Shown here piece by piece: positions 34,173 to 34,335 of a stretch of 35,344 nt of DNA. Position 1 is the stretch's first letter. The number at the start of each line of letters is the position of its first letter. The notes beneath the pieces are model-generated. The model ran no database searches, was not told the origin of the DNA, and was given only the letters and a program-made list of their open reading frames with translations. The translations under genes and the position numbers were made by a program. The DNA comes from a virus: positions 1 to 35,344 of IMG/VR virus record IMGVR_UViG_3300028754_000006; one strand, given 5' to 3'.

Positions 34173-34335
34173 GGTTTCCGCCCCGACCCCATTTCGGTTT
34201 CCGCCCCAATCAGGGGGGGTTTCCGCCCCGACGTCCTGCCTGCTCAGAGGGTTTCCGCCCCAAGTAAGGGTTTCCGCCCCAGGGGCGATAACAGGTTTCC
34301 GCCTTTCCGCCCCCAGCCCTATAGGGGGCGGAAAG
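34173..34335. repeat. Iteron-like GGTTTCCGCCCC array with terminal hairpin
   Basis: Five exact copies of GGTTTCCGCCCC start at 34173, 34196, 34218, 34250 and 34269, then GGTTTCCGCC at 34294 and TTTCCGCCCCC at 34304. Spacing is 19-32 nt, mostly about 22. The last copy pairs with GGGGGCGGAAAG (34324-34335) in a 12-bp hairpin with a 9-nt loop. GCGATAAC occurs twice near the end (34284 and 34343). The array follows the primase-helicase gene without a gene inside. It fits an iteron-type origin or a regulatory array. Open frames across it are repeat artefacts. Confidence 0.8.

Follow-up and report, generated by a model that had tools for sequence, protein, structure and literature searches.

Short direct repeats beside a replication gene raise the question of whether they mark the site at which replication begins. 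We asked this of a repeat array at positions 34173-34335 of a linear IMG/VR virus record of 35,344 bp (the window, meaning the whole stretch of DNA that was analysed). The first-pass annotation had described seven tandem-like copies ending in a perfect hairpin, and had proposed a candidate replication origin in a gene-free strip after a primase-helicase gene. Portal, scaffold, major head, and terminase families were found in the window, and the portal family suggests that the phage is podovirus-like. From the sequence comparisons given below, we consider the array to be the likely origin of replication in this group of phages. This proposal is supported by the array in relatives, by nearby DnaA boxes, and by a conserved block running from the helicase to the hairpin.

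Repeats and hairpin downstream of the primase-helicase gene

The array lies where it was first placed, beginning 5 bp 3' of the stop codon of a gene for a PrimPol and RepA-type helicase protein. The features of the locus are as follows, in window coordinates.

32189-34168, + strand: 659-aa protein with PrimPol and RepA-type (AAA_25) helicase domains, both assigned with Pfam, and a winged-helix-like segment at its C-terminus; proposed initiator
33950-34153, + strand: C-terminal winged-helix-like segment (residues ~588-655), from weak profile matches; candidate repeat binder
34173-34184, + strand: repeat 1, exact GGTTTCCGCCCC
34196-34207, + strand: repeat 2, exact
34218-34229, + strand: repeat 3, exact
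34250-34261, + strand: repeat 4, exact
34269-34280, + strand: repeat 5, exact in the window (CCTTTCCGCCCC in relatives G003 and G005)
34294-34303, + strand: repeat 6, a partial copy (GGTTTCCGCC) in which the first 6 nt are the left side of an outer stem
34303-34335, no strand: perfect 12-bp hairpin (arms 34303-34314 and 34324-34335)
34335-34340, no strand: GAAACC, right side of the outer stem, pairing with 34294-34299
34346-34395, no strand: relatively AT-rich stretch, candidate unwinding region
34378-34386, - strand: DnaA box TTATCCACA

The 12-mer GGTTTCCGCCCC occurs in five exact copies, starting at 34173, 34196, 34218, 34250, and 34269. They are followed by two mutually overlapping partial copies, GGTTTCCGCCtt at 34294 and ccTTTCCGCCCC at 34302, each matching at 10 of 12 positions. 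The seven copies first counted are therefore five exact and two partial ones, with one inverted copy in addition as the right hairpin arm. Distances from start to start are 23, 22, 32, 19, 25, and 8, so that the description of the copies as mostly about two helical turns apart holds for four of the six spacings and fails for the remaining two. The array is beyond chance: its commonest 10-mer occurs 7 times in ~210 bp, a count reached in none of 500 shuffles. The 10-mer TTTCCGCCCC was confined to the array, both within the 35.3-kb record and in four related records. As proposed, the strip looks non-coding, because no reading frame runs intact through the array once spacings shift by a single base from one lineage to another.

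The expected hairpin was also present, formed by one direct and one inverted repeat copy around the 9-nt loop AGCCCTATA. Its predicted DNA fold was stable in all three lineages that we compared (z = -4.2 in the window and -3.7 and -5.8 in relatives). Repeat 6 pairs in the window with the GAAACC adjoining the hairpin, unlike in relatives G003, G004, and G005, where it pairs with an additional inverted repeat copy 3' of the hairpin to give a longer outer stem. Because the partners of repeat 6 differ between the window and its relatives, the compound hairpin is kept in differing forms.

Conservation of the array and its surroundings

Five viral contigs (G001-G005) encode close relatives of the 659-aa protein. 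Together with the window they represent three independent lineages, on which the conservation of the array rests: a near-identical phage (G001, G002), a 75%-identical one (G003, G004), and a 70%-identical one (G005). The first-pass annotation had suggested searching beside homologous primase genes, and each of the four related contigs reaching beyond the primase stop codon carries the array in the same place, order, and spacing, over a range of 70-100% protein identity. The first four spacings agree within 1 bp across the three lineages (23/24/24, 22/21/22, 32/32/31, and 19/19/19). Invariant positions made up 88 of 92 in the repeat cores versus 48 of 73 in the spacers (Fisher p = 6e-7).

DNA identity between the window and G003/G005 was 68/57% in the PrimPol domain, 83/89% in the helicase, 81/85% in the C-terminal segment, 85/79% in the array, and 47/47% in the 300 bp beyond. 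A block of high identity thus sets in where the helicase domain begins (~33100), continues as far as the hairpin end, and falls off on either side. Since this block spans both elements and drops outside them, the helicase/C-terminal half and the array are kept, or exchanged, as a unit. Conservation of the block strengthens the case for an origin.

Perfect DnaA boxes adjoin the array in every lineage, which strengthens the case further. The box in the window is its sole TTWTNCACA site. G003 and G004 have two boxes, one on each side of the array, and G005 has TTGTCCACA after the array, roughly at the position of the window's box. The three lineages contain four perfect TT[AG]TCCACA boxes (1, 2, and 1, respectively), and every one lies within ~75 bp of the array, where 0.002-0.003 would be expected within 100 bp per genome. 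Since the window's box overlaps what may be the start codon of a small ORF, it could by itself be a coincidence, and for this reason the argument rests on the three lineages together. An iteron origin typically has several short, regularly spaced direct repeats beside an initiator gene, conserved between related replicons and accompanied by one or more DnaA boxes; each of these was found here, the boxes as sequence matches and the conservation in three lineages.

Base composition was less telling. The candidate unwinding region is 58% AT versus 31-41% in 1-kb windows, and the 50-mer at 34346 is among the AT-richest in the window, behind a divergent promoter region at 27896-27970. This enrichment is modest, and the neighbourhood of the array is not the AT extreme in G004. 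Cumulative GC skew, which had been suggested as a marker of the origin, did not turn at the array and had its total minimum near 12 kb. Skew at fourfold sites was weakly positive up to the array. The profile is neutral to mildly against a bidirectional origin at the array, and we judged GC skew uninformative.

Outside these lineages the array was not recovered. A pattern scan of IMG/VR for two neighbouring repeats returned these phages and two further matches (L018, L020), which we dismissed as coding coincidences. Neither blastn against phages nor searches of genome contigs and plasmids gave a relative, and tblastn against plasmids gave no match. Distant phage matches to the protein cover the helicase only. 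Gordonia Emalynvirus phages and Mycobacterium phage NoShow share the same type of primase-helicase gene at ~22-26% identity over the helicase, with a non-coding gap after the gene in most, but the Gordonia phages examined lack an array, which counts against the origin reading. NoShow (L036) has three copies of TTGGCGAGCG, at 4929, 5045, and 5128, where its primase-helicase gene ends and beyond (0 of 500 shuffles). These are possible iterons, in a smaller array and with a sequence different from that in the window.

The candidate initiator and competing explanations

Which protein might recognise the repeats? Pfam placed Prim-Pol (PF09250) at residues 16-160 of the 659-aa protein and AAA_25 (PF13481) at residues 322-490, both above the gathering cut-off. 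Residues D84/D86/H113 of the PrimPol domain and K350/E385/D446/H487 of the helicase are invariant among relatives. The helicase set has the same order and similar spacing as the catalytic set K49/E82/D136/H177 of gp46, the RepA-like 5'-3' helicase of phage F13 (PMC8965321). The protein thereby carries the catalytic residues of a RepA-type helicase, as in the RSF1010 system. Its C-terminal segment gave weak matches to the winged-helix profiles TBPIP/Hop2 (E=0.004) and Lrs14 (E=0.0025), and was modelled at low confidence as helix-helix-helix-strand-strand. Both AlphaFold models, one for the full protein and one for the C-terminus, were poor and of low confidence, and a PDB search by sequence found no relevant match. 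The last ~70 residues thus bear a weak resemblance to a winged helix.

By analogy with P4 alpha, we lean slightly towards the adjacent 659-aa protein as the factor that recognises the origin, probably through its C-terminus. The 12-bp iterons about two helical turns apart, the compound hairpin that follows them, and the nearby DnaA box keep the same position immediately 3' of the replication gene in three diverged lineages. Several copies of the PrimPol-helicase would bind the iterons through the C-terminal winged-helix-like domain, and host DnaA, bound beside the array, would help to melt the adjacent DNA. The RepA-type helicase ring would then load and unwind. The hairpin, extruded as a single strand, could mark or prime the start for the PrimPol domain, with host polymerase extending afterwards. 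The genes scanned included none for a phage DNA polymerase.

The array could also be an origin whose repeats are bound by some other protein, a separate phage or host initiator, with that protein or DnaA loading the PrimPol-helicase in the way that RepC loads RepA in RSF1010. The DnaA boxes and the weak winged-helix assignment fit such an arrangement, and an Arc-like ribbon-helix-helix protein (27951-28169) and a number of small early proteins without assigned function offer candidates. We nevertheless think it rather unlikely: the array and the helicase/C-terminal half belong to one conserved block, the C-terminal segment (83-89% identical between lineages) hardly varies, unlike the PrimPol domain, and no RepC-like gene was found.

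A regulatory role, in which the repeats are operator or silencer sites for a repressor of early genes, seems very unlikely. Multiple sites with an inverted pair are compatible with cooperative binding of a repressor, and other, lineage-specific palindromes in these phages look operator-like. However, the repeat differs from those palindromes in occurring at a single place in each genome and in being identical between lineages. The array follows a gene rather than leading one that is shared, and the small gene 3' of it is not conserved between lineages, which argues against an operator of that gene. We found no promoter-like site in 33900-35100.

We rejected the remaining explanations, each of which we regard as having only a slight chance of being correct. 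A role at the RNA level, whether as terminator, processing hairpin, or stabiliser of the mRNA 3' end of the primase transcript, would suit a stable hairpin 3' of a gene, but no U-tract follows the hairpin, Rfam gave no match, and the five upstream direct repeats with fixed spacing and the DnaA boxes would be left unexplained. Both packaging and partition systems use iterated sites, yet the large terminase gene is 11 kb from the array, contig ends do not fall at it, and no clear ParA/ParB was found among the genes scanned, which makes a pac/cos or parS-like site just as improbable.

Comparison with known replicons and other sequence features

Taken as an origin, the locus shares parts with several known systems. 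The helicase of satellite phage P4 belongs to SF3, whereas that of the 659-aa protein is of the RepA type (SF4; AAA_25, PF13481). The proteins also differ in their primase, which is bacterial in type in P4 (PMC4234260) and a PrimPol (PF09250) here. As recounted in PMC4234260, P4 alpha unites primase, helicase, and a C-terminal winged helix that binds short repeats at the origin. The likeness to alpha and its ori/crr would lie in having these elements in one protein together with short origin repeats; in our protein PrimPol and AAA_25 are firm and the winged helix is weak.

RSF1010 (IncQ) oriV resembles the locus in its RepA-type hexameric helicase, iterons, and hairpins. In the outline that PMC4234260 gives of that plasmid, RepC, RepA, and RepB' share the work, and the primase uses the ssiA and ssiB hairpins. 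Three separate proteins and two ssi hairpins there contrast with one polypeptide and one compound hairpin here, where PrimPol and helicase are carried by the 659-aa protein, which has no plasmid relative. A bolder proposal, which we put forward tentatively and consider unlikely on balance, is that of an RSF1010-like replicator in one polypeptide. The C-terminal domain would act as RepC on the iterons, AAA_25 as RepA, and PrimPol, beginning at the extruded hairpin, as RepB'. From the host, the phage would need no more than a polymerase, and perhaps DnaA, and copying might proceed by strand displacement.

The crenarchaeal plasmid pRN1 has a stem-loop origin element just 3' of the gene for ORF904, a protein with PrimPol, helicase, and C-terminal winged helix (PMC4234260). 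It differs in its SF3 helicase and in a large, 100-bp stem-loop without iterons, in place of which we found a RepA-type helicase and iterons. Phage-inducible chromosomal islands (PICIs; SaPI and others) have a pri-rep-ori layout in which an iteron origin lies immediately 3' of rep, the initiator gene (PMC6092414). Like the pRN1 element, this layout is a precedent that favours reading the array as an origin. Two iteron sets surround an AT-rich region there, whereas the window has one GC-rich set with a hairpin and a DnaA box.

Because the locus has parts of each known system and all of none, we count it as a new arrangement of a known origin type, which would work like P4 alpha/ori, RSF1010 oriV, and PICI rep-ori. 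In the open-access literature consulted, a limited set rather than a full review, we found no description of PrimPol, SF4 helicase, iterons, and hairpin in combination. The analysis yields a precise, conserved candidate origin of ~210 bp, tied to one protein in which PrimPol and an RSF1010-type helicase are combined, in a phage group for which we found no cultured member. If the proposal is right, a single compact unit would link the iteron origins of P4, PICIs, and RSF1010 with the pRN1 stem-loop origin, and would offer a small replicon for a presumably high-GC host.

A recurrent palindrome, in most cases intergenic, is also present in each lineage with a sequence particular to that lineage (CCACTCACnnGGTGAGTGG-like, AGCCCCGATCGGGGCT, and ATTCGAnnnTCGAAT), at the following positions.

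Window: 1907, 27894, 34746, 34903
G001: 24055, 24541
G003rc: 22665, 22741, 23729
G005rc: 9020, 9099, 9911, 10146, 11316

The palindromes occupy corresponding places, for example before the gene that follows the array and again between the end of that gene and a terminator-like hairpin. They look like operator or stoperator sites whose specificity shifts between related phages. The 72-aa Arc-like protein (+ strand, weak matches) is encoded first in an early operon, and GGTACC/TTACCATGGTAA-like sites upstream of its gene and near 34780 could be its operators. We rejected it as the binder of the variable palindromes because the three lineages do not differ in the strand predicted to contact DNA, TVQMNLRVP. 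At 34640-34720, upstream of the gene that comes next (34848), the lineages share a non-coding element (GGGACTCCTACAAC..CTGCTGTCGC). G004 extends past the left end of the window, and there it encodes a 511-aa protein (L023 18461-19996, - strand) with the P-loop GKPGTGKT, an apparent AAA-type ATPase that is absent from the window. Internal repeats occur at 25227-25834 within a collagen-like tail-fibre gene.
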